Shown: positions 1-33,219 of the stretch, piece after piece
Layout of the letters: every line of letters starts with the position of its first letter
Position numbering within the stretch: position 1 is the stretch's first letter
Source: Arctopsyche grandis
Taxonomy: Eukaryota > Arthropoda > Insecta > Trichoptera > Hydropsychidae
Direction: 5' to 3'
DNA: 64,000 bases
Assembly (NCBI RefSeq): GCF_051622035.1
Contig: NC_135360.1
Location: 25,185,206-25,249,205 of the forward strand
Notes under the pieces: model-generated
What the model was told of the DNA's origin: nothing
Databases searched by the model: none
Seen by the model: only the letters and a program-made list of their open reading frames with translations
Translations under genes and position numbers: made by a program

Positions 1-155
1 GGCTTTGTCGTATGCATGGGTCTTTTTATAAAATGCTGTGCAGTGCACACACCCAGCAGTAATCCAAAACAACCACCTGCAAGGTAATAAATAATAACTG
101 AATTTGAATTGATATTGTACGAATAAAATTGAATTATATTATTGATTTGTTTTAG

Positions 156-1663
156 ACGGTTATCTGAAACGTTGCGTAGGCCAATGAATACATTGAGACG
201 AATGAGGCGAGGTCAATATGGGCCGACCGGTCCTGGCCCAAACGCACCTTCGAGAGATTCTCGGGGATCAAGACCACCGCCAGGTGCCTCTCGACGTCCC
301 CAGAATCCTCACAGAGGTTATCAAGAAGGTCGAGGTCATTATCAACAGCCCAAGGGTCTGTTTCGTTGTTTCAATGCATTTGCTCACAAATGTTTTTGAA
401 ATAATCAATGCACTCAATTCATTTCTATTGTATTTAAAATATACATAAACAATTGCCTTGATTTAAATATAAATAATCATCAACCTTTTTTTTATTTAAT
501 GTATTTAAATATCTTATGAATAGTATTATATGCATGTAGACTTATTTTGTGTTGCGTTTTCAGCGTCCGCGCCTGCACCAAGTAGTGGAAGAGGAAGCAG
601 CGGCGGTAGAGGAGAATTGTATGCCGGTGCATATTCCGGTCCTCCTAATTCCTATGAAATGCGCTCCAATAAAGTCTGACAGTGTTGTCCGCAGCACGAT
701 TCGCAGGCGTACTTGCTGCGGTCTTATCAAGGAGCCCCCGTTATCATTCATCAACCGCCTGAACGATGCCAGGCAACCTCTTACACACCAAATGAATACC
801 CAAACCGGCAGTTTCAATATAACGACGATTATTTATCCGATAGATTTTATTCTAGAGAGAATCAGCAGAATTACAATGCATACATGAGAATGAATGCTAG
901 AGAGGGAGCCGCAGTGTCGCGTAGAAGAATTCAAAACGATTCATCAAACATTTCGCCTGATAATATTATAAATAGTGCATCAAACAACGCTCAAAACGAA
1001 AACTCACCGCATACGGGCAGAGAGGAGATGCTCTATCAGCTGAGCGAAGAGTCCGTTCATTGGCAATTTCCCAAAATCATTGTAGGATATCAACCGATGA
1101 GGCCTTACTCAAATGGTGTGCATGGACTAATGTTACAACCGACAATGGTGTATCAGGCGGAGAATATGATTTACCATTTAAGAAATGAGGATTTAACTAA
1201 ACCTATAGTGCCTCAACAAAATTCGGATGCTGTTAGTGAAGACGAAAACAATTCCAATCAAAGTTGCATAAACAGTAAAAAATTACAGGAAAACCCCAAC
1301 GAATGTTCCAACTCATCATCACAAGATATTTTTGAACTTAAAACTCAAAAGATCAGAAACGACATTAAAGCGTTACGCGATTCTAATCCGGGACTGCTTT
1401 CTGAAAGCCTAGAGTTATTGGATCAGAATAATATTTCCAACGAGCACATTGATAACTCTGACGAGGAAATCATCAAGCCACACTTGAAAATGTTAGTTGT
1501 AAAGACGGTCGCATCTCAGACCAATATAACTCTGCAGTCTCCCGATTCTCTCAGTGTCAAAAAATCTTATGATTGTAATTCTGCCAAAGCGTCTTCTACT
1601 GATTTATCATCTAATGTTTCTACGCAGCTTCCAACGAAACATATGTCTGAAACTGTCATATAA
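156..1663 (+). CDS. 3' part of an unidentified low-complexity protein gene, with an in-frame TGA in the last exon
   Basis: Two exons are visible: 156-355 (acceptor TTTTAG, donor AAGG|GTCTGT) and 564 onward (acceptor TTTTCAG). Joined in phase, they encode an Arg/Gly/Pro-rich segment, then a GRGSSGGRG stretch ending in YEMRSNKV, then a TGA at 677-679. The same frame continues without a break for about 328 codons to a TAA at 1661-1663. This downstream part is rich in Asn, Gln and Ser but has complex, protein-like composition (for example HWQFPKIIVGYQPMRPYSNG). The gene starts upstream of the window. The RG-rich first half suggests an RNA-binding or RNP-associated protein; that is inference from composition. 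I do not recognise the family. The TGA is discussed under findings: stop readthrough, sequencing error or pseudogenisation. Splice sites and frame are seen directly; function is unknown. Confidence 0.6.
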
Positions 1664-4600
1664 TTGTAATATATTTAAAAAAAAAGTTTGTTTTTTAATA
1701 TTGCTACCATACAATCAGAGTGAAGTATTATTATTTAATACAAAACCAAATGTTGCTCAAATATAGTTTTGACTGTAAAAGAGTGAAAATTGAGTGTTTT
1801 GTACTATCGTATGAAAATTATTATTATATTACATACGCTTAGTGAACTGATTGAAAAACTTTTTGTTTATAAACTTTTAAGTTACTGAAGATTGGAGTGA
1901 AATAATAGTTTGTTTCAGTGTTTTTATTTTTCCTTTTTTGTTATAAAGACTTGAATAGTTAAAATATATATGTAAAAATAACTTGATTTTACAAATAAAC
2001 CAACAGATATAATTTAAAATAAATATGTGGTAAAATTCATGTAAAGAGATTACGTAATGGACAATTTTCGTTTATTTCCTATTTATACTTATAAAAAAAA
2101 AACATGACACTTTGGATTACTTTTCATTTTTGTGGAATATTAAAGTATTGCAAACAGTCAAATAACTTATACATTTGACTTGTGTTCGTTAGTACTAATA
2201 AAACATATTAATGTTTTTGATCTCTTTTCATATTATGTTTAAATTGAGTCACTTATCTCATATAGGCTCTTTGAAAAGTAAAGTACTGAAAGATGGACTC
2301 ATTGTTGTATTTATTATTATTATTATATCATTCCGTTACTTTTATACATATGTATGTAACAGACTTTTATTGTAATTTAGGGTATTATTTTTTATGCATA
2401 AACCGAATTATCATTTCCATAAAACGTGCAATATGTATAAATGTGCAAACTTAAAGACAATTCCTTTTTTTTTTGTATATGTATAAATTATAGCAGAGAG
2501 AATTCAAACACTGATTAAAAATTGATCGAAATATAGTTTTCAATCTGAGAAATAAAATCTGCCATTTTATTTTTAAGCATTGTCGATATATAGCAACTTT
2601 ATTATAAACAAAATACATCTACTCAATATTCAAGCTATGTGAAGTATCATTTTAAAACTATTTATGAATATATAATTATTGTATCTCTCGCATACCAAAA
2701 CTTGTATGATAGTTACAAATAGTGAATGAGAGTCTAATCATTCTGGCTTTCGAGCGCGTTTGTATGATCTGTGAACGCGCGTCTATCAAATGAAATCGGT
2801 AAAGTTCATAACGGAAGATAAAATACATAAACAGTCGGCTGTAAAACATTTGTATTCTTAAATTATATTTCAGCGGGCGTGAATGTGACGAGTATTCGAT
2901 ACGATTCTATAATAACACGAGTTCACGTACACCGCATTATCAGTTTTCAACTCTTAATAGTACTATTCTAATGGATGAATAATATTTTTCAGAAGTGTAT
3001 ATCTTAAAATTTATATATATATATGTATATCGAAAGACTACTTTCTATATTTATCGACTGTCTGATATTTTTAATGTCACTTGTCTCACCGAGATCTGTT
3101 TGTGAATAATAAAAACTAATAAACGAAATAAAAACCTGCGACTGCTGAGTGTGAACATATAAGATGTACATAAGAGTAACCGATTTTTTTATAAACACAA
3201 ATCATAATAAATGTACCTTAGATACTCTAAATTACTTTTTAAAGTAGACATTACATTACAAAAGGAAATATTATCATTTATGCTCGTTTTAACGCTGCTA
3301 GACAATAAGAAAACTCCACACATTGTAATTTTTGTCATCCTATATTTATTATATTAAAAAAGAAAAGTATATAATTATATAATAATCGTCATTTAACCCA
3401 GAATTATATGCATATACATACATATATTGAATGTCTTATCAATATTACGTGAATGCCGTATTCGATATGTATCGTTTCGATCCGTTCGTTCGTTCGCTCT
3501 TACGTATGTAGGTATGTCTCTCTTATGTGCTTACACACATGTGAAATTGTCCAGTTCACCTGAGCCTTTCGTTACGATGTTTATGATTACATATGTATGT
3601 TTTACGTAATCGTTAGTGTTTAAGGTTTGTCCCACGAGATGATGATCGAGTCTTCCCGAATTCCAGACGCCGGATATTTCGCATTTAGTAAAGCTGTGAT
3701 GTGTGGCATAGTTGGTAATATTTCCTTCCTAAAATGACCAATTGGTGTTGTATGGATTAAAAAGGAGAACTTCTGTTTAGCAAATAATATATATAATGTA
3801 TATATACATATATATATATATATGTTAAAATGAATGAAAAACATTGTAATTCACGGTTCCCTTCTTTGACCGTCATCACACTTTTAAAATTATTGTTTCT
3901 TTCATGGAAGAAAAGCGTATGATTTACATAAATGTGAATATTTTAATTATATGATGAATGTTGATAATTAATCAATGTGATTTAAAAATGTAAAAAATAC
4001 AAATAAATTTTACATTTAAACCGATGTGCTGTTTGAACTTTTACTATTCATACTCCCCATTTTCCTGACTCTTCATAAACATACTAATCACTAGAGATAG
4101 GCTAATCGTCAGGGCTCTTTTTTATTTTGAGCACTGATGGAATGATTTTTTTTAAATGGTACCATTACGGGTTTTACCCCAAGGCGACACCTATGGCCAA
4201 ATTCGTGCATACATTTATACTTGATATAAATTTATAACATTATCATGATAAACTTGATATTATATTGAAATAATGTTGACAAACTAGGGGGTCTACCTCG
4301 TTCCATCAATTTGCAATATCTCAAGACTCGTTTTCCCAACTTTTTCGGTGTATTTCGTCGTCGATTTTGAAACATATATATGTCACTGTGAAAATATATT
4401 CAGTGAAATCATAACCAGTTAAATTTTCAGGGTTGGTTTTATTCATTCGAGATTAGATTGTTAGGGTTGGTATTATTTAAGCGTTAGGATAGGTTAGGTT
4501 AAGTAAGGGTTGGCCTTATTCATTTAAGATTGAGTTATTAGGGTTAAATTTATAGAGTTAAACGTTGTAAATTCATTGTTCGATACATTTTCACTGCTTG

Positions 4601-6456: not shown

Positions 6457-9400
6457 TTATGGATGGGTCATAGCCTGTTCTTGCTTGTAAACGGCATTGT
6501 AAGCGTTCCGTATCAGGGCGTACGGGAAACAAGACTCGAGCAGGTCCATGGTGAGGAACGGTGATTCCTGAACGATCAAATCGAGAAGCAGATAAACCGA
6601 CTCGCGATTTCGCGTAGCCTCTTTATCAGCTTCTTGACCGAGTCTCAACAGAGACGACGAGGTCAACGCCAAGAACTCTTTCATCCGATCCTCGATATCG
6701 CCCTGACCGCAAATTGTGAACAAAGCACCGAATACATTATTTATCGCTAAAGCCATGCAATGACTGTTGTTCGCGTGACCTTCTAATGACGCTTTGAAGA
6801 AAGAGCTTTCATTTCGAGCCAAACGAGGGATCGAAACGGCAACGAACACCATCAAAAGACATACAATCAGATGCTCTTCGTCATCGTCGGCTTTGTGCTG
6901 CCGCAGAGCATTCGCCAGAGTTGGATCGACCTTACACGGCAAACCCGCAGCCGAGGACATTTCAGATATGACTCTCATCGGATCGCCACTCGGCAAATGA
7001 TGCTGGAAATCTTTAATGGAACTTATCAAGAACGGAATGCGCTGTTCCAAGACGTCTAACAAAGCCTCTTGGGCGATTTCTCTAAAGCTTAAAATAACAC
7101 CGACGATGGTCATCCTTTGTAAAACATTGTCTACGTATTGCAGTCGTTTGAACTGTTCTTTCATAACTTCCGGCTTGTCGAAGCTCGTTCTCAGCATTTG
7201 CAAGACGTCTTTATTGCTTATGACATGCTTTTTCAACTCTAAAACTTGACTGGTGATGTGCCACATCAGTGTTTCATTCAGGTGTTTCATCCCGTACGGT
7301 CCGATCAATTCGGCCAAAGCTCGAAGTTCGTTCAAATCTGAAAACTCTTCGGCGTTGAACGGAATAGTACCTTCGGCAGTCAAACTGACGAAAGCTTTTT
7401 GATTCATCGAGAAGCAAATATTTCCGGCGCTGACACGCCTCAACAATATTTCCGAATACCACGTCGTATATAAAGATGTGATGGTTTTTTCTCCGTGGCT
7501 ATCGACGCTTTGCGTCTGCTGAAGCAAGGCATTGTTGAACACTCGGGTTATGTCGATGTGTACGTAGTTTTCTACCGTCTGCAGAACGTTCATGTACGCG
7601 CGTACGCTTACGAGCAATTCAGTCGGCTTGGCTATCTCGCTTGTATCCTGATTGAACATGACCATAACGACCAGCGCTTTCGAAAACCTCGTTTCTAAAT
7701 GCTGATGCAGATACTCTCTAGGAGCGAACGTATATTCCCAAACATTAACTGTAGTGCAATAATTGATTGCGAAACACAATTCAGTGAGTGCCATATGTAA
7801 TTTATCCATAGTAGTCAATTCCTCGCGAGTTTTTCTAAAGCTCTCCGATCCCGGTTTCATGACTTCAATAGCATTCTTCTTGTTCTTGTCTTTCTTCTTG
7901 CGATTCACCAACTGTGCAATCGTTTGAGCGCAATGCTTCGGCAGCAGCTTATCACTCATCTTACACTGTTCGTCGCATATCGTCGTTATTATATTTTTAG
8001 CCTCCTTGGCCATTTCCTCCAGGAACATATTGACAACGGATAAACTGCGCTCTCGAATGTGGTGTCGCTCTTCCGGGCAGAGTTCATGCGTGCAATTTTG
8101 AAAGTGGCTACAAATCAACGGGAACGCTATGATGTAACGGTTCTGGGCGGGGAACTCCAGGCACATGTGGAACTGATCGTCAAATATTTTACTATAAAAA
8201 CAAAAAATTGATAAATCGGACGTCTCTACCATGATTTCATCCAAATTATCGACCATCTTTGTATGAAAGACCATCTTGTCAATGAGTTGGGCCATCTCGC
8301 GGTTGTCAGCGATGACCAACGCCGTTCTAGCTATGGAAGTGTACGCTTGGAATCTGAACCAATCGAGGCGGAACGCTCTAAAGTCGAACATCTCATTGTC
8401 TTCCACTTGCTTCACGCTCAGACTTGCAGCCGTATTGCACAAAGAAGATAAGATAATACCTTCATCTTCGGGTAGTACTTGAAAGTTTTGTATCAAAATG
8501 TTAAGAGCGATAGCGTCATGTCCTGATAAGTATTGTATATAGTAGCGTTGCATAACTTGACTGTACTTCCGCACCAAAGCCCTCAATTCTTCCATGTGAA
8601 ACAGCAACTCTGGCAATTGCCTGTCTACTAAATCTTCCGTCGATTTTCCTTTAGCTTTCTGCAAAGGCGGGTTGTCGTTGTGACGCAGTAGCCAAAACAC
8701 TTCATCTCTAGCATAGCACAATCCCATGAATATCAATAGAGCTTTTGGTCCTAGTAAACCAGGTTGATCAGTTAAAATTAAACCCAACTCTTTTAAAGCA
8801 GTACGAAGAAACTTTCTACGTTCCCGATGCTTATAACCTGCCTTCTGTACGGCATGATTATAACAATCTTTGACTTCGGAAATTTTTTTACTGTAGCCTT
8901 TAATACCATCGAAGAATCCTTGAATGTACGAATGAATATAGATTACCTCGTCACGGAACAATGCAACGACCCATCCCGATTCTAAAGCACCCACCCACAT
9001 CTTATTCGCCTGTTCGTTCTGCAGCACATGATTGCACAACATAAATCCGAATATAATCCATCGCTCCATTGCCTCCAACGATAGATAATCACACGACATT
9101 GTATTCGTCTCGGCAGCCTTCAATATCTGACTAGGGTTTCCGACCAAACTCAACTTTTGATCTGATCTCCAAGCATCGGCGGTTAAATTCCTTCCTGGAT
9201 ATATATGCGCGAGGGACATCAGCGCGTTGATCAAAGTCTTTTGATGTATTCCAAATTCTTCGGTCAATTTTTTCATAGGCACATCGTAATCCATAATCAA
9301 CTGGCCTAATTTCGGAAAGCTTGAATCAATCTGATTGTGGACCATTTCATATGCGGCGTTGAACAATCCGAGTACCGGTTTTCGATCTTCGACTCTAGAA

Positions 9401-9825
9401 AGCAAAATCATCAAAGATACGTATGTGGTGACTAAATCTAAATAATTTTTAGTCAACTCGAAATTCAACGTAATATCGAGATGAGCCTGACAAGCGTCAA
9501 CTATATTTAACAATTCGCAAACGTTATCTTTAAAATCTAACAAGTCGACAAAAGTATAATAGTATAGAGAGAGTGACTTAATTATTTCATTTTTTATATT
9601 AGCGATGGCTTGGAGTCCTTTTATGTCAACGGTGGGAAACTTTCTGATGATAAATTTAATAGACGACTCTAGCGTCTTATCTGAAAGAAAGGCCGGTTTC
9701 GATTTTGGATCTCCGCACGCTTTTTTAATGTTGTATATTCTAGTCAGCATTCCAACACCGCGGTCGTTCAAGATGACGAGCTTTTCGGCCAGCTTCTGCT
9801 GGGATGGACTCATCGGACGAGACAT
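6457..9825 (-). CDS. Hem: Hem / Kette, Nck-associated protein 1 (NCKAP1), WAVE regulatory complex subunit
   Basis: An uninterrupted 1122-codon ORF starts [20 protein letters not shown] and ends near EQAMTHP. Length and sequence match the NCKAP1/Hem family (about 1120-1130 aa, all helical). The conserved N-terminal [26 protein letters not shown] region, the Lys-rich loop KKKDKNKK in the middle and the C-terminal [12 protein letters not shown] region are all present. The protein is a cytoplasmic scaffold that binds Sra1/CYFIP in the WAVE complex, which activates Arp2/3 and branched actin assembly downstream of Rac. The start is chosen at the first Met after an acceptor-like CTGTTTTCAG (minus strand, at 9857-9866). 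The entire CDS lies in one exon, which is unusual for this gene, but an apparent 5'UTR intron argues that it is the functional locus and not a retrocopy. No frameshift or stop is seen. Confidence 0.97.
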
Positions 9826-10140
9826 CTTGGTGTTGTGTGGTGGATTTTCAACGCATCTGAAAACAGTCGTCCCAATCTATGTCATAACTACATATCCACT
9901 AATCAAGTGTCAAATCATGTAAATTGAAGACACTTATCTGATGCATGTAAGTGATTGTTTTTCTAGATGGAATTATAGATATTAGGGGTTACCTGAAAAC
10001 TATAAAACGTCACAATCGACGTATAAAGGCGAGGGTTTGGAGTCCGATGAGGTGAAGTTCAAGGAAGCACAGCAAGGCTGACGGCGGGGCGCGGCCGCCC
10101 GCTACGTCCTGTCAGAGCCGCTTGTCGGTTAGCTTAGCCG
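9826..10140 (-). promoter_or_regulatory. 5'UTR with intron and GC-rich promoter region of Hem
   Basis: On the minus strand, CAG|GTAACC at 9993/9992 is a good donor and CTGTTTTCAG ending at 9857 a good acceptor. Together they define a 136-bp intron (9857-9992) immediately upstream of the Hem start exon, with 31 bp of 5'UTR (9826-9856) before the ATG. Upstream, 10060-10140 is much more GC-rich than its surroundings (GGCGGGGCGCGGCCGCC and similar), as expected for a housekeeping-type promoter. The transcription start itself cannot be placed. Confidence 0.55.
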
Positions 10141-11968: not shown

Positions 11969-15455
<3,487 letters not shown>

Positions 15456-15919: not shown

Positions 15920-18900
15920 TCACACAAAAGCACTGCTTTCGTCAGAGCTAGAATCGCTATTTATTCTCATCTTAGCCCGTTTATTTTTATTCTGATTCAC
16001 CGGACTGTCCTCGCTAGTATGGCTCTTATTGAGTTCGCTGTTAGACGATCCACAATCGTCACTATACTCTTGCTGATATACCCTTCGTCGTTTCCGCTTC
16101 TTCAGTATGGCCTCGGCTATTTCCAACTCGGACAGGTCTTGCGCTTGTGTCAGGAGTTGTTCGTTGCCGACGCAGAAAGAGTCCTGAGCATTCAAGTAAG
16201 GTTAAATTTTACACAATACAATACATAGTAACACAATGAAACATACCAATTCGTATGAAGCGTCTTGATCTGGATCGGCTTGGGAAAACACGTTGGCGTT
16301 GATCTTGGGAAGTTGCGGTATTTTGAATTTACCATTCAAAGGACTTCTGAAATGCATTTTATTGGTTCAATTTTCGTTTTGAATGTATTGTTGCATAGGG
16401 GTGGGTTCAGGATCCAAATGAAAGGTCAAAGTCGCTTCAAAGCATTTATTTAACGATTCAGGAGGTCCACACGTAACTACCGCTCGCTCCAGAATAATCT
16501 GCTCTACCGTGTGTACCTCCTTATAAAGGACAAGTTTCTCATCACAGCTTCCCCGATCCATTAATGTGTGTATTGTGTAGGCACGTTCGCCCCGGTTCTG
16601 AGAATTCTAGCGGGCAATTACTGAGTCCCGTTTAGCCTAATCCGGGGGTCTATTGTTCACACCTGAATGCACTTAGACAGCGGTTACTCTCTCCCGTGTT
16701 ACCACGTTACAGTATTTATATTTATTTATTATACATATACATATATATACCAGGAAGACCTAACAGGTAAGCCCCAATGCGATTTCCTGGCCAATTACAA
16801 ACAATGCAGCATTTTTATTACGTAAGTCGCTAAATTATGAGACACTGAAAAACTCCAAATTAACGAGACATCTATGAATTTTAAACTAGTACATAAATTT
16901 TATTGTACATAAGTCATATTCAAATAGTGGTGACATAGTCAGAAGGAAGATTTTTAGCAAATTTTAATGGAGGAACCGTTTCAACAATGAAATCAGAAAA
17001 ATTGGCAAACTCTGATAGGAAACGATCGACTGGGAGTCATAAATATCCAAGTATGACTAGCAACATTACGGATAATATACTCATAATAAATTCTTTTCAA
17101 TCGAGGTCAACTCACGGGATCGAACCCGGTGACCTCACAGTGCTAGGCAAAAGTCCAACCACGAAGCCATGCTGCTGGCTATTATTACTATGTATATATT
17201 GTTTTGGGGTCTGGGTCACTGCATCGAACGTCGAAAGATCGAAAAGATGGGGATTCGTTTTCGATCTTTCGACGTTCAATGCAGTGACGGCCACCGATTG
17301 TTTGGTTGATGCAATGATATATGTACTTACTTGACGGATTGTAAATACTTGGCTCTCATGTCGATGGATTCGTTGAGGTCTGCATTTTCATCACAGATGA
17401 AACTGCCTAAAGTAGTATTGGAGCCTTCGCTGTCGTGTTCGCTGCTTCCACCTTCATAAGAATCGTCGGATAGTATAGCCTCGTAGTCGATGAATTCGCA
17501 CAATTTTTTCTTTTTCTGAAGTTTCAAATGCATTTATTAATCACTAGATTGAATTATTCCAAGTAATATTAGATTTATACTTACTTTTTTGGCTTTGTTT
17601 TTATTTACTTCCGTATTACGTTTCTTTTCAAATATGGGCTTCCGAGGAGATTTTGTGAAAAAATCATCATCACTATCTTCGGAATTCTTATACAGTTCCA
17701 AAGAGCTATTTGAACGATTCACGTTGTGTTTCATCATCGTCGTTTTAGATTTTCTAGCGAATGCACTCAGTTGATGAATACTATTGACAGTGTGGTTACT
17801 AGAAGACTGCACTAGATTCACTTGCACTTGTTCATTATCATCAGGACATACATTTTCTTTTGAACTAAACGAAAAATCTGAGCCTAAACTTAGCGAATAA
17901 TCTAATTTTTCTTTAATTGATTTGTGTTTATTATCTGAAGTAGTATTTTTAAATGTATTTACGGAACTGGGAAAAAATGGTGAAGCTTCATCCGAATTGA
18001 ATACAATTCTATTTAACAGTGATGGAGAAGCCGTTTCTGAACGCAATACCGTTGAATTAGTTTTAATATCATTGCTATTGTTAAAAGGTTCTAAATCATT
18101 GTCAACATTTCGAATCTCATTAGAAGATTTAATGTCGAGTGAGTCATCTGAACTTTCGGAACTAGCAAGGATGACTATATTTGGTTTCAATTGACTGAGC
18201 GTCTTTTTAGTTTTGAACATCTTTGGTTTAGCAACCTGAGAACAAAGTATAATTGAATGACTACTTTCATTACCATCATCACTTTTTGACATATCTAGAT
18301 CAGTTTTGTCTTTATTATTAATCATGTTGATGGCTTGTGTTATAGATAATAGCGTAGACTCGTTGCAATCATTGAACGTTTGATTTAGATTCCTTTTAGG
18401 AGTGTGTAAAGAAAGATTTATGTTTGATTGAATATTAAATTTGGTATCGTTCAAACGTAAGCGCAAATCGTCATCACCGTTGAGGATTTTCGGTATAAGA
18501 GCGGCATTAGACATTCTCGATTTTCTATCGCGTTGAGTCATGATAATCGGTGAAGTCGAATCTTGCTCAATATTTATATTCCTATCCAAAATTGGAGATT
18601 TGATTGAAGAAATTTTTGATTCGTTTGTGGATTCGTCGAACGAATTGCTCGCAAATATGTCTTCAACACCACCGAGGCCGAAAAATTCCAATGGATTTTT
18701 AGTATCATTGAGCAGACTGCTACGTTTTAATTCCATATTACATTCAAGATTGGCATTTTTAGGACTGTTAGTATCACTAAATGCAAAATTAGACTCGTCG
18801 AAAATACCGTCTACATCAATGACATTAAAATTGTCTCTTTTAGTGCTGTCGTTATTTTGACAGTTTTTTTGGGCATCAAGTGAAGTATCATTGATTTCAC

Positions 18901-21900
18901 AGTGAAAACTATGATCGTCAAAATTAACATTGTGTTCGGCAATGTCGAATTGATCCATATCAAAATCTTCAATGCCGCTGTTGTCCGATTTTGGAGATAG
19001 CACTAATGATACGTCAATTTTCATATCTACCGATGAATTAAGATTTAAACTACTAAGACATAAACTATCGTCAAGTTTGTAGTTGGGTAATATAGCCGAC
19101 GATAAATTGGAGGCTTTAGCTTTTATCAATGTTAATTCTGGAAAAGTATATTCCATTACACTGTCTAGTTTAGATTTGCCAATATCTAGCTCAACCATAA
19201 GATCTACCAGGCTAAATGGAATGTTTTCCAATTTTAGATGATCATTTATCGATTCTTGAGTACTAGTATCGATGCCGCACTCGTTTAAAATTTCATCTAA
19301 TCTATCTTTAAATAGAGTTTCTTCTTTATTATTAGCTCTATTGATTTTTCTGAACAGTTGCCGGATGTCATTATTGTTTTTAGGTTTCTGGGAAGCGTTT
19401 ACTTTTTCCCGTTTCTTTGGTGCTATAATTTTCTTTGCGTTTGGCACAGTGTTAATTTCAAAATCTAAATTCGGTGGACATATATCTGAAAAGAAAGAGC
19501 AATGGTTGATTATATTATATACTGTGTAGTCACATATTTTAAAAATTACACTGAGCAACCAAAAATCACGTTTTTTTCTTACCGAAGCCGAGACTTATCA
19601 ATCAAAGTTTGACCCACTAAATTCGAATATGACAATGATTTTTGTTGCCTTCTTCTCGTTTATGAGATATAATGTTTTAAAAAAGCGCAATTTTTACAGA
19701 TTTAAAAATATACAGCAATAAAAAATTATAATCAATAGAAAAACATCTGACTATGGATTCCAATAATCACTTTTGGCACAGCAATACTAGATTTTGAGTT
19801 AAAAACTGCAAAAGTCAAAAATCTGTAAAAATTGTGCATTTTTGAAAAGCTTATATCTCATAAACAAGAAGAAGCCAACAAAAACCATTGTCTTATTCAA
19901 GTGGCTCAAACTTAGTATAGATTAAGTGTCTAGTCCGGTAATTATTTCTGTTGCTCAGTGTTATCAATATAAATAATTGAATGTATTACTGGCATCGCAA
20001 GTAGACTGAATATCAAATCTTTTCGAATCGGCAAATTGAAGCAATTTAGTAAAAATTTCACTATTCACAGAATGACCCATTTCGCACGTATTCTGTAAAA
20101 TTCGTTGCCATTCTGTGCGTTTTGATAAGAGATTTCCTGGATTTTCAATTGATATATCGACATTTGCCGAGTTTAAGAAATCCACTTTAAAATACGTTAT
20201 AATGTTTATTAAAATATATATGTATATGAAAACGCATCTGATTAAAAATAAAAAAGAAACTGATGATACCTTTAGATGTATCGAAACAATCTAATTCTTT
20301 AACGAAATATTTTGACATATTAAAACTTTCACCATAAGTAGAAAGAAACTCTTCTTTCGATATAAGAGCCGGTTTGATTTCAACATTATTTTCATTTTTT
20401 GTTTTACCGAATATATCCTTCAATTTAGATTGAACCTGAAATATTTAATTGTATTATAAATTTATATGCAATTTTTTTAATACATTGATTAACAATGCTT
20501 TACCTTTTTAGATTGATTCCCTTTTTCAACTACCTGTTTCTTTTGTACTGTTATGAACATTTTTTGACATACTGGTTTTATATTTTGAGGGATCATTCTT
20601 GGATTGCCTGTATATAAGCACTTTTGAATTTCTTTACTATGAAGTATTCTTTTGTTTAAATTATCCCTTTCATACATGCAATCTCGCAATGTCTACAATG
20701 GATAAAACAATAAAATAAAATATGAATTTTACAGATACATATGTATAATACATTTCAAACAAATTACTTGATGTTCTTTTCCTTCGGTGACTAGAATTAC
20801 AACACGACCATTCCTTTCCCTGCCAGTTCTTCCACATCTATAAAGAATATCATATCATAAATGTTACAATAAACAAATCCAAGTACATACATAAGTAGCG
20901 TATTTCCGAACCTTTGGACTAATCGTACGGGTGATTTATTTGAAATATCAAAACAAATAATCAAATCGACATTGCCGACGTCCAATCCTTCTTCGCCGAC
21001 ACACGTTGATATTAAAACATTGCAAACACCTTCCCTAAACAGCTGCATCACTTTCAATTGCTGCTTTTGTGAAAATGGTTTTAAATTAGAATCTTTTCCA
21101 CCTGAAATAATATCGCAGAACGTTTAAAATAACAATTTTTAATACAAAAACAATCAATGCAATTTAAACATACCTGAGCCGGCACCTTGACCGATGAACA
21201 TGTTCGGTTTTATCAACGGTCTACATTGCAAAAGTAAACAATGCACCAAGTTGACACTTTCCCTATACTCACAAAATACTAAAAAAATAATATAAAGCAT
21301 TATTTTGTTGTATCTGAATACAATATAATATAAAATAAGTGCAAACAAACTGATAGCTTTTGTCTCTTGGCCTTTGTACTTGGCTGTGTTGAAATGTTCC
21401 AACATAATACTCTTCAAATGATCAAATTTGGGATGGCCAAATATTAAATTTTCTTTTATCTAAAATTTTATAAATTAAAATAAAATAAAACAATAGGATA
21501 TGACTTAAATAATTTTAACGGTTTTCCCGCGGCCGTCTTCTATGGAAGCTTTGAGCGACAAGTCTGTAGCGCGGCTGTCTTCCATAGAATTTCTGAACTT
21601 TGCACGGGATTTTGAGGCTTATATGCGCCTATTTCAACTGTTTTAAGGTTCAAAATTGGTTGAATATATTACTGAGTTAAATTCCATCTATAAATTTGCT
21701 AAAAAAGGAATATAGCCAGCAGCATAGCTCGGTCGTTAAGCTTCTGCTTAGCGTCAAGAAGGTGCCGGGTTCAATCCCCGAATGAAAATGAATTTTTCAG
21801 AGTATGCTGTTGGTCAGACCTGGATTTGTGACTCCAGGTTGATCGTTTCCTATCAGAGTTTGCCAATTTTCTCTGATTTCATTGTTGAAACGGTTCCCGG

Positions 21901-24719: not shown

Positions 24720-24825
24720 ATAGAGGCACGCGTGACAATTATGTAGTTTGTAAGCTTGTATAAACTTGCAACAATTACGTCCCCCCACAAACACACACTT
24801 TTGTCACTTGTTGTCATTTTGATTT

Positions 24826-25204
24826 CGATGTGCGTGCGTGCGTGCTTTCATGCGTGCGTGCGTCCATCCGTGCGTGTGTGCGTGTGTACGTGCGTGCGTC
24901 CTTCCGTGCGTGTGTGCGTGCGTGCATCCGTGCGTGCGTGCGTGTGTATTTGCGTGCATCCGTCCATCCGTGCGTGCGTGCGTGCGTGATACGATTTCGA
25001 TGTGTGTGTGTACATGCATGCGTGCAATTTTGATTTCGATGTGTGCGTGTGAGTTCGCGCGTGCGTGTGATTTCAATGTGTGTGTGTGTGCGTGCGTGCG
25101 ATTTTGATTTCGATGTGTGTGTGTGCGTGCGTGCGTGCGATTTCGATTTCGATTTCAATGTGTGCGTGCGTGCGTGCGTGCGTGCGTGCGTGTGTCCGTG
25201 TGTG
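24826..25204. repeat. Degenerate GCGTGC/TGTGCG microsatellite
   Basis: About 380 bp built from GTGCGTGC-type tetramers, interrupted by repeated GATTTCGATGTGTG spacers. The purine/pyrimidine alternation is nearly continuous. ORFs in all frames here (Cys/Val/Arg or His/Thr/Ala repeats) are artefacts of the repeat. Confidence 0.9.
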
Positions 25205-25207
25205 CGT

Positions 25208-25460
25208 ACGGTGTTACGCGCACAAAATTTCAATCGCGACAGCTGGCTCACGGGCATTACCGAATGTGCCGATACTGGTGGTATCAGTATTTGACCGAAA
25301 ACAAACCTTTGGAACTACCGGTACTACAAACTAAACAAATGCTTTTGAAAATCCGCAGATTTGTCAAAATAACTGTTTTGAGCTGTTGTCGCGTGAGTGA
25401 AATTTCGTGCGCGTAACACCGTTTGTCGCGAAACCGTGAGCCAGTTGTCGCGAAACCGTT
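25208..25460. repeat. Inverted repeat pair with about 50-bp arms
   Basis: GGTGTTACGCGCACAAAATT and the following GACAGCTGGCTCACGG (25208-25262) return inverted as CCGTGAGCCAGTTGTCGCG and AATTTCGTGCGCGTAACACC (about 25396-25460). The order within the right arm is partly duplicated or rearranged. Non-coding. Confidence 0.6.
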
Positions 25461-27687: not shown

Positions 27688-29509
27688 ATGGAGTGCCGAC
27701 TTTGTCTCTGCTCCGCTCCAGCAGGCTCCTTCGTCTCCATCCATGACGACCCTCATCCACCTCGTTTGGCGCAGCTCATTTGGACCTGCTGTCAACTGCG
27801 TGTCAGTCACCTTACACTTAAACCATTGCTATTATTAATTCGCTAGTCCTCGTAATCGTCAATACCTTTCTCATTTGTAGGTTAGGAAAGATGACCAGCT
27901 GCCAGATACGATATGCCTTTCGTGTGTCAACAATCTGGAATTGCTCGACAGCTTTCGAAACGCTTGTTTTCGGAGTGACAAAACGTCGAGGGTAAAGTTC
28001 GACAAGTCTTTAGCTATCAAGCCGGAGGAAGTTTGGCTGGAAGATTTAAAATGGAGAGATCAATCGGGTGCTCATTTACCGCCAAACATTTCTACTTCTC
28101 CGGACGATGGCGAGGTAAGTCAATGGAATTCGAGTGCTTTTGAACGATTCCTTTAATCGAAAATATAAATTCTTCTGCAAAATGACATCCCGTCACATAA
28201 CGTTCAATTTATTTTTTAGACCCCTGAAGGAAAAATCACTCGGAACGATAATAAGGCAGACATAATAGATATCGATAGACACATTCTACAGAAAAACTGT
28301 AACACTCGAAGAAAGCTGCATGGATGTGACATTTGTTCAAAGTCATTTAATACGAAAAGTGGTCTCCGTGTACACCGGAGTGTTCATACAGGGGTAAAGC
28401 CACACAAATGCGACATTTGTTTAAAATCGTTCGTTTTAAAATATCAGGTCCGTAGACACATGCGTATGCATAGTGGGATAAAGCCATACAAATGTGACAT
28501 TTGTTTAAAATCGTTCGCTTCAAAATCTAACATCAGTCTTCATATGAGTATTCATTCTTTGGTAAGGCCGCACAAATGTGAGATTTGTTTAAAATCATTC
28601 ACTTCAAAGTCTTGCCTCCGTAATCACGTTAGTATTCATAGTGAGGTAAAGCCACACAAATGCGAGATTTGTTTAAAATCATTCACTTCAAAATGTTACC
28701 TCCGTAAGCACACTAATATTCATAGTGAGGTAAAGTCACACAAATGCGAGATTTGTTTAAAATTATTCACTTCAAAATATTACCTCCGTGAACACTCGTG
28801 TATTCATAGTGAGGTAAAGTCACACAAATGCGAGATTTGTATGAAATTATTCCCTTCGAAATCTCGCCTCAATGTACACATGAATATGCATACTGGGGTA
28901 AGGCCACACGAATGTGAGATTTGTTTTAAAACTTTCTCTCATAAATATGTCCTCGTGAAACACATGATAATTCACACTGGTGTAAAACCACACAAATGTA
29001 ATATTTGTTTAAAATCATTCACTACAAAATATCACCTCAATATACACATAAATATGCATACTGGGGTAAGGCCACACAAATGTGAGATCTGTTCAAAATC
29101 ATTCGCCTCAAAATCTGACTTCCATAAACACTTGAGCATTCATAGTGGGGTAAAACCACACATGTGCGACATTTGTTTAAAGTCGTTCGCTTTCAAATTT
29201 CAGGTCCGTGTACATATGAATATTCATACTGGGATAAAGCCACACAAATGTGACATTTGTTCAAAGTTATTCACTTCAAAATCTCATCTCAATAGACACA
29301 TGAGTATGCATACTGGGGTAAAGCCACACAAATGTGACATTTGTTTTAAATCGTTCACTTCAAAATCTGACCTCCGTATACACACGAGAATTCATAATGG
29401 GGTAAAGCCATACAAATGTGAAATTTGTTCAAAATCATTTACTCATAAATCTACACTTTCCGTGCATTTGAAATGTCACACTCGAGAAATTCCAATCACA
29501 TTAATGTAA
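27688..29509 (+). CDS. ZAD domain plus 14 C2H2 zinc fingers, putative transcription factor
   Basis: Three exons: 27688-27801, 27881-28114 and 28220-29509, total 545 aa, all phase 0. The N-terminus MECRLCLCSAPAGSFVSIHD with Cys3/Cys6 and, across the first junction, PDTICLSC with Cys50/Cys53 form the four-Cys ZAD (zinc-finger-associated, dimerising) domain typical of insect C2H2 proteins. After a roughly 100-residue linker come 14 consecutive fingers of the form C-x2-C-x12-H-x3-H, joined by HTGVKPHKC/HSEVKPHKC linkers, each 84 bp. Fingers 4-7 are very similar to one another, suggesting recent array expansion. A nuclear DNA-binding role is expected; the target is unknown. The start is the Met directly before the first zinc-binding Cys. 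A MITE begins 38 bp after the stop, so the 3'UTR includes or abuts it. Confidence 0.92.
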
Positions 29510-31982: not shown

Positions 31983-33219
31983 TCATATCGTTGCATCAGC
32001 AGAATTTGAACTTGTTGCAACGTCGTTATTTTGCATGATGGCTTCAATTTCTGCAATATCGAATTCATCATCGACCGATAGTTTAGGAGAATCACGAGTG
32101 TTTGTACGTTTATTTAAAAACGGCCTATGTAAAACCTTGTAAAGCTTTGTCGCTTTCCGAACGCCAAAACCGGGACACTGAGCCAATTTGTTTTCCGAGG
32201 CACTTATTATATTCCCCAAAGTGCCAAATGTCGATAATAGAGTCATAGCATCAGTTTTATTTACAGGTTTGATCGACGACAGAGCATTAACAATCTGTAA
32301 TATAAAAAAATAGTTTTGAGTTACTTACAAATATGCCAGAAAAATTTAAAACGTTTATGATTATATTGACCTTTTGATGAGGATCATTTTCAATCTTTTC
32401 CATGATTTGATCCGGTGGTTTATTTTCATATATTTTGTATGTTTCTATAATTTTACCAGCCTCTTCATAATTCCATGATAACATCAACGTTAAATCAGCC
32501 AGAAGACACATTCTAGTTAATTTTTTTAATATTAAATGTGGCTCACTTACATCCACCTAAAAATATATTATACATAAGCTTTTGAATAAAGCAAATACAT
32601 ATGTATGTGAGTTTTATTCCACAGCAAATTATTCACCTGAACTAATAAAACTCGCAATTCATACGCTTTACCCAAAACCTTTAATCGGTCTTGAATATAA
32701 TCTGGATTCATATTATGATATTTGAGAGATAGAAAAAGAGCACAAGTGGTCGGTCCCATAACATAATCTGGAATAATGTCTTCAAATTCCCACGGCACAC
32801 TAGTGATACCTTTTAAAAGAGGATTCCCTTTCTGAAAAATAATTAGTACAAATAAGAAAGAAGACACATCATCAAATATATGTATATATATATAAATTAT
32901 TTTACCTGTTTCGGATTGACGAGTACACAATGTGGTTTTGAAATTATTTTTGGTTTAGTGATATTGGCTGGAACTAAAATGAAAACGTATATTAAACAAA
33001 AAAATTAGCATTAAAATAGAATACTATACACTGATGTAGACCATCGGTTTCCACTCGGGGTAATTTTGAGGCTGATGGTTCCGAATCTTCCACTTGTTTC
33101 TGTATAGATTCTGGTTGTGTCTGAGGCTGTGAATGTGTCTGTGATGTCTGTGACGTCTGATAATCATTGAGACATTCCTCGGCTGCCAATAGCAGTAGTT
33201 CATCATCGTCCTCATCCAT
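31983..33219 (-). CDS. Ercc1: ERCC1, non-catalytic subunit of the XPF-ERCC1 structure-specific endonuclease
   Basis: Five exons on the minus strand: 33219-33042, 32973-32906, 32831-32637, 32556-32371 and 32294-31983. They sum to 939 nt (312 aa; human about 297 aa) with matching phases. After an acidic, Gln/Ser-rich N-terminus ([20 protein letters not shown]), the central domain reads [39 protein letters not shown] and [10 protein letters not shown]. This is the XPA/DNA-binding ERCC4-like fold without the nuclease motif. The C-terminal tandem helix-hairpin-helix region ([40 protein letters not shown]; about residues 220-275) dimerises with XPF. Role: the 5' incision in nucleotide excision repair and in interstrand crosslink repair. 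The first-exon donor GATG|GTCTAC is chosen because it alone keeps frame with VPANITKPK. It lies about 8 kb from FANCM on the same strand. Confidence 0.96.

Follow-up and report, generated by a model that had tools for sequence, protein, structure and literature searches.

A candidate stop-codon readthrough in the ADAM10/kuzbanian gene of Arctopsyche grandis

The ADAM10/kuzbanian gene at the start of a 64,000-nucleotide stretch of the Arctopsyche grandis genome (the window) may encode two cytoplasmic tails, a short one that ends at an in-frame TGA and a long one that would be produced by readthrough of this UGA-C stop. We assign this reading, which is drawn from the sequence, a probability of roughly 0.6. 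Three options had been offered in the initial annotation: two isoforms by readthrough, a recent nonsense allele, or a base error. Readthrough is the best supported among them, because the TGA lies where human ADAM10 ends, its context is UGA-C and the frame downstream is coding-like, although splicing had been dismissed there on an incomplete set of acceptors. According to the proposed mechanism, a near-cognate tRNA would sometimes decode the normal UGA-C stop as sense. The majority of ribosomes would terminate and release the ordinary short-tailed protease, with 109 residues after the juxtamembrane motif HTPSSNPK, and some would continue through one inserted residue and 327 codons, which would give a long-tailed form ending in -SETVI.

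ADAM10, called kuzbanian in flies, is a membrane protease whose cut activates Notch. The gene lies on the + strand, and only its last part falls inside the window. The transmembrane exon begins upstream, its reading running on from L002:9851-10000 of the same contig, and directly upstream of the window (L002) lie the disintegrin-region exons and one that carries HEIGHNFGSP, the zinc-protease motif. The gene is identified as ADAM10/kuzbanian because of the transmembrane match to human ADAM10, the HEIGHNFGSP exon, and the exon next to it, which matches ADAM10 (E 2.8e-20) better than ADAM17 (E 5.8e-11). Its catalytic and disintegrin exons are closest to ADAM10, and both the transmembrane segment and the juxtamembrane motif are present. 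The exon ending at 83 contains the end of the transmembrane segment followed by HTPSSNPKQPPA, and its donor is AAG/GTAATA. The features of the locus are as follows.

1..83, + strand: 3' part of the ADAM10/kuzbanian transmembrane exon (FVVCMGLFIKCCAVHTPSSNPKQPPA..), matched by phmmer to human ADAM10 chain 8esv_A with E 7.8e-6
84..155, + strand: intron of 72 nt, GC 0.17, GT..AG, in phase
156..355, + strand: exon 2, cytoplasmic tail, R/P/G-rich, joined in phase (AG 154-155, GT 356-357)
356..563, + strand: intron of 208 nt, GC 0.24, between exon 2 and the last exon
564..676, + strand: last exon, end of the first ORF (AG 562-563), ending NSYEMRSNKV, which resembles the human ADAM10 end ESYQMGHMRR
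677..679, + strand: first stop, TGA followed by C, in the context AAA GTC TGA CAG
680..1660, + strand: candidate readthrough extension of 327 codons, S/N/Q-rich, net charge -11, an open frame that is coding-like in frame 0
1649..1660, + strand: C-terminal -ETVI, a possible class I PDZ-binding motif (end pattern [ST].[VILF])
1661..1663, + strand: second stop, TAA, around which GC falls from 0.401 (680-1660) to 0.229 (1664-2700)

The likeness to ADAM10/Kuzbanian covers the HTPSSNPK motif, the HEIGHNFGSP catalytic site, the R/P-rich tail and an SYxM followed by five residues before the stop. The difference is the 327 more in-frame codons past the stop, which have no Pfam match, no significant PDB match (best E 1.6) and no relative among plasmids (a single match, E 5).

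The sequence and frame check bore out the earlier description of this structure. Exons 156-355 and 564-676 do join in phase and reach the TGA at 677-679; the same frame is open to 1663, where the 328 codons first counted are 327 sense codons plus the TAA (680-1663); and the base after the TGA is C (TGA CAG), which makes it a UGA-C stop. An open frame of this length by chance was rejected, as a first-order Markov model of the same composition gave no open frame in 20,000 sequences and the analytic estimate is 7.6e-9. The hexamer AATAAA occurs within coding sequence at 668-673, a few bases ahead of the TGA, and as a possible poly(A) signal it could permit a transcript that lacks the extension.

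The protein-like composition claimed past the TGA was also confirmed. The extension (680-1660) is coding-like in frame 0 only: its codon score in this frame is 4.2 SD above 500 dinucleotide shuffles, and the other two frames give -1.6 and -1.1. The signal is spread over its length (z 2.2, 2.2 and 2.8 for successive thirds), and the control 3' flank (1667-2647) gives -0.3, 1.3 and -1.2 in the three frames. The codon table for these scores was built from the neighbouring Nckap1 gene and the upstream exons of ADAM10/kuzbanian. Codon tables of this kind are of limited reliability where composition is unusual, because several controls were misread: with a table from Nckap1 (Hem) only, a real zinc-finger gene scores negative (-0.26), and the later table gives the R/P/G-rich exon 2 no coding signal (z -0.7) and favours frame 1 of exon 3 (2.45) over frame 0 (1.35).

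The position of the TGA was compared with the end of human ADAM10. The short form ends NSYEM-RSNKV-stop and the human protein ESYQM-GHMRR-stop, in both cases SYxM, five residues and the stop; the human end was confirmed in PDB chain 8esv_A (residues 520-543 of 543). A random ten-residue peptide of the same composition would match the last ten human residues equally well with a probability of 0.0055. NSYEMRSNKV is also the best among 440 stretches of the tail and extension (score 12, next 11); this rank adds little, and the moderate weight that we give to the resemblance comes from its placement right at the stop. Because the short-form end resembles the human one, the TGA probably marks where the old ADAM10 stop was, and what follows would be an added tail. 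With moderate confidence, given one orthologue and a short match, we favour an extension added behind an existing stop over a stop that arose inside an older long tail. An end position common to human ADAM10 would provide a handle on when the extension arose and on whether lineages with a continuous tail lost the stop.

A derived nonsense change would reverse this order: the ancestral tail would have been long and continuous, a sense codon would have become TGA here, and the tail would now be truncated with little or no readthrough. The frame contains no second stop before 1661, as expected if such a change were recent. The fly Kuz protein, of about 1238 residues, has a long tail, and if this tail is continuous and homologous to the extension, the TGA could be the derived state. 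This history is a live rival, but we consider it less likely than readthrough, as the coincidence of the TGA with the human ADAM10 end would then be accidental, and the codon is followed by C. In D. melanogaster, the available part of PMC5100048 gives, in its 2016 single-species estimate, a correction for only 17 recent nonsense cases versus an estimated 754 readthrough regions with scores above zero, two separate estimates made in another animal.

A search of the species' own genome (475.7 Mb) returned the extension at one place, so this genome contains neither a second haplotype copy of it nor a processed mRNA copy that would show splicing. The lack of a second copy for comparison, and the fact that a single changed base would be enough, leave some room for an assembly base error at 677-679. 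Such an error is an unlikely cause of the TGA, indeed the least likely one considered here, given the contiguous assembly (475.7 Mb in 189 contigs, with a contig of 34.75 Mb at this locus) and the coincidence of the TGA with the ADAM10 end position.

An isoform spliced past the TGA, from an in-frame donor (84, 284, 356, 606 or 627) to an acceptor at 731, 1085 or 1554, would make readthrough unneeded. The initial annotation had held that splicing cannot skip the stop. The AGs at 694 and 706 on which it relied are indeed out of frame from donor 356, but the claim was too strong because other in-frame acceptors exist, for example AG 731. It had also named a single GT...AG of 21 nt within the interruption as too short for an intron; the length argument stands, but GT 674 pairs with three AGs (9, 21 and 33 nt, all in frame). 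These micro-introns were rejected as too short; by score, their donor stands at the 66th percentile among 222 GTs. GTs of the three exons were paired with AGs wherever the resulting intron would take out the TGA without shifting the frame, and the best 25 of those of at least 40 nt were considered, scored with a crude matrix. Among the pairs listed, AG 731 (TTATCAAG/GA) is in frame from donors 284, 356, 606, 627 and others, with rough scores of 12.8 (284), 11.3 (627), 10.4 (356) and 9.9 (606). The pair 284/1085 reaches 13.5, AG 1085 being in frame with further listed donors as well, and 84/1554 reaches 14.3, but the latter would remove most of the extension. The two accepted introns reach 8.9 and 11.1 on the same rough matrix, values like those of the in-frame bypass pairs.

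Such an isoform is a live rival, but we regard it as less likely than readthrough in view of the composition of the bases that it would remove. GC content is 0.549 in 680-730, the 51-base stretch from the TGA to AG 731; among windows of this size, 2 of 4136 non-coding ones and 138 of 1432 coding ones attain that value, and none of 4120 non-coding windows attains the GC content of 732-784. The non-coding windows were taken from the introns of the gene and its 3' flank (to 4800), and since windows overlap these counts are descriptive. The first 17 codons past the TGA also lean weakly towards frame 0 (z 1.9 versus 0.1 and -0.9). A constant intron or UTR need not show exon-like GC or such a frame-0 lean, and a coding-like signal is likewise present in the thirds of the extension that precede 1085 and 1554. 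Moreover, AAG is an uncommon splice acceptor, and the acceptor at 731 is of this type.

Other arrangements of the exons were also considered. Skipping of exon 2 was rejected, as it yields an early stop. Within exon 2, the in-phase donor 284 (CAG/GTGCCT) scores 7.4 versus 5.0 at 356 on the crude matrix, and its use would remove 24 tail codons. A second frame, one base ahead of the kuz frame, is open across the TGA for 115 codons (540-887, + strand); the chance that one given frame is open in this way is 0.0059 for 564-884 and 0.045 for 564-784. Translation of exon 3 in this +1 frame was set aside, as none of the 11 GTs of exon 2, nor donor 84, leads into it, and the ADAM10-like end belongs to the other frame, that of TGA 677-679. 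The +1 frame is reachable only from three GTs inside exon 1 (7, 10 and 43), located in or beside the membrane segment.

Among the features that characterize functional readthrough, the locus has an in-frame, coding-like second ORF after the stop and the UGA-C stop context. Five folds around the stop revealed no RNA structure beyond that of shuffled sequences (z -0.74 to 0.07). A-rich bases just upstream of a stop favour readthrough, and the bases directly before this stop are GTC, not of the A-rich kind. The 8-mer CAGCAGCA is enriched in fly and mosquito readthrough genes; neither the extension nor the 250 mRNA bases that precede the TGA contain it. Over the whole window this 8-mer occurs 7 times versus 0.64 expected from shuffles, with no occurrence in the kuz part.

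A UGA is also open to recoding by selenocysteine insertion, by A-to-I editing to UGG, or by a suppressor tRNA. Together these routes are very improbable here. An Rfam scan of 500-4500 detected no SECIS family (five weak matches, all below gathering scores), no fold around the stop was better than the shuffles mentioned above, and the A that would be edited has a 5' G, a neighbour that ADAR disfavours.

Readthrough by near-cognate decoding, our preferred reading, is an event type well known in insects. In the available parts of the corresponding papers, hundreds of genes in flies and mosquitoes are reported to undergo it, as are genes in bumblebees (PMC5100048, PMC4528330, PMC7826183), UGA-C is described as the favoured context in insect readthrough genes (PMC7826183, PMC5100048), and long disordered extensions, including those of transmembrane proteins, form a described type (PMC4528330, PMC4999894). 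The 2016 survey found no such abundance in A. mellifera or T. castaneum (PMC5100048). The present locus resembles the genes described there in its in-frame stop, coding-like second ORF and UGA-C, which is enriched among them; it differs in that its extension is far longer than most, in the absence of CAGCAGCA and RNA structure, and in being called without PhyloCSF. Among the 851 readthrough candidates of the bumblebee B. terrestris, the available text treats UGA-C enrichment as a marker of true readthrough (PMC7826183), and UGA-C is found here too. The Drosophila leucine-rich transmembrane protein Caps, with a readthrough extension of 240 aa, is similar in bearing a long tail on a transmembrane protein; however, it belongs to another family, and its extension continues the similarity to Trn according to the part of PMC4528330 available, whereas the own genome contains no second match to the extension reported here.

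In the available portion of PMC5100048, kuzbanian and ADAM10 appear once each, in a reference title only; the name kuz is absent from the main text of PMC7826183, whose candidate gene list sits in a supplement, and from the main text of Dunn et al. 2013 (PMC3840789). Across open texts, a scope that leaves the candidate lists of supplements outside, readthrough was not reported for kuzbanian/ADAM10; apart from the reference-title mention, the hits were unrelated work as judged from listings. ADAM10/kuzbanian is thus a new candidate gene for readthrough in the searchable texts, and kuz may already be on a published supplementary candidate list.

The two predicted tails differ in composition. The short tail after HTPSSNPK is basic (net +15), R/P/G-rich and contains three PxxP motifs. 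The S/N/Q-rich extension contains two PxxP, two YxxPhi and one dileucine pattern, all of which are frequent by chance. No relatives of the extension or the tail were found in viral contigs or in genome contigs. The definitions of class I PDZ ligands and other motifs were applied to both parts, and the extension ends in -SETVI, which fits the pattern [ST].[VILF]; the short form lacks this pattern at its end. This makes -SETVI a possible class I PDZ ligand, judged from a four-residue pattern. The known link between SAP97 and ADAM10 runs via an SH3 contact with the tail. If the four-residue pattern is a true PDZ ligand, the long form could contact SAP97-like scaffolds directly, and binding of its end might alter the place or turnover of the protease. 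Involvement of the scaffold SAP97 in ADAM10 trafficking in hippocampal neurons is described in the available part of PMC4260750.

A more ambitious reading, which we find doubtful, is that the ancient ADAM10 stop was kept, a 327-codon tail grew behind it, and readthrough now acts as a Notch-sheddase switch between a short form with a basic tail and a long form, net-acidic and probably disordered, whose PDZ ligand would lead it to scaffolds at junctions or synapses. If readthrough does set the tail length of ADAM10/Kuzbanian, the place or turnover of this sheddase could be tunable at translation termination; otherwise, the locus would be one more instance of a phenomenon reported in hundreds of insect genes.

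Further frames were noted in the rest of the window. An uninterrupted 1139-codon frame at 6457-9876 (- strand) matches Nckap1 (Hem) over the whole profile with 1733 bits, so this gene is apparently a single coding exon. The frame at 14668-15132 (+ strand) has a weak Myb_Cef match (29.1 bits versus a cut-off of 27) and may represent an exon from a CDC5-like splicing factor, and the S/N/D-rich frame of 685 codons at 17537-19594 (- strand) has no Pfam match at E 0.01. Overlapping frames of HTHART-type low complexity at 24804-25314 (- strand) are probably a simple-repeat array, not a gene. A 429-codon frame at 28220-29509 (+ strand) contains 11 matched C2H2 zinc-finger stretches, and two frames at 31983-32954 (- strand), matching the helix-hairpin-helix and Rad10 domains, constitute an ERCC1-like gene.
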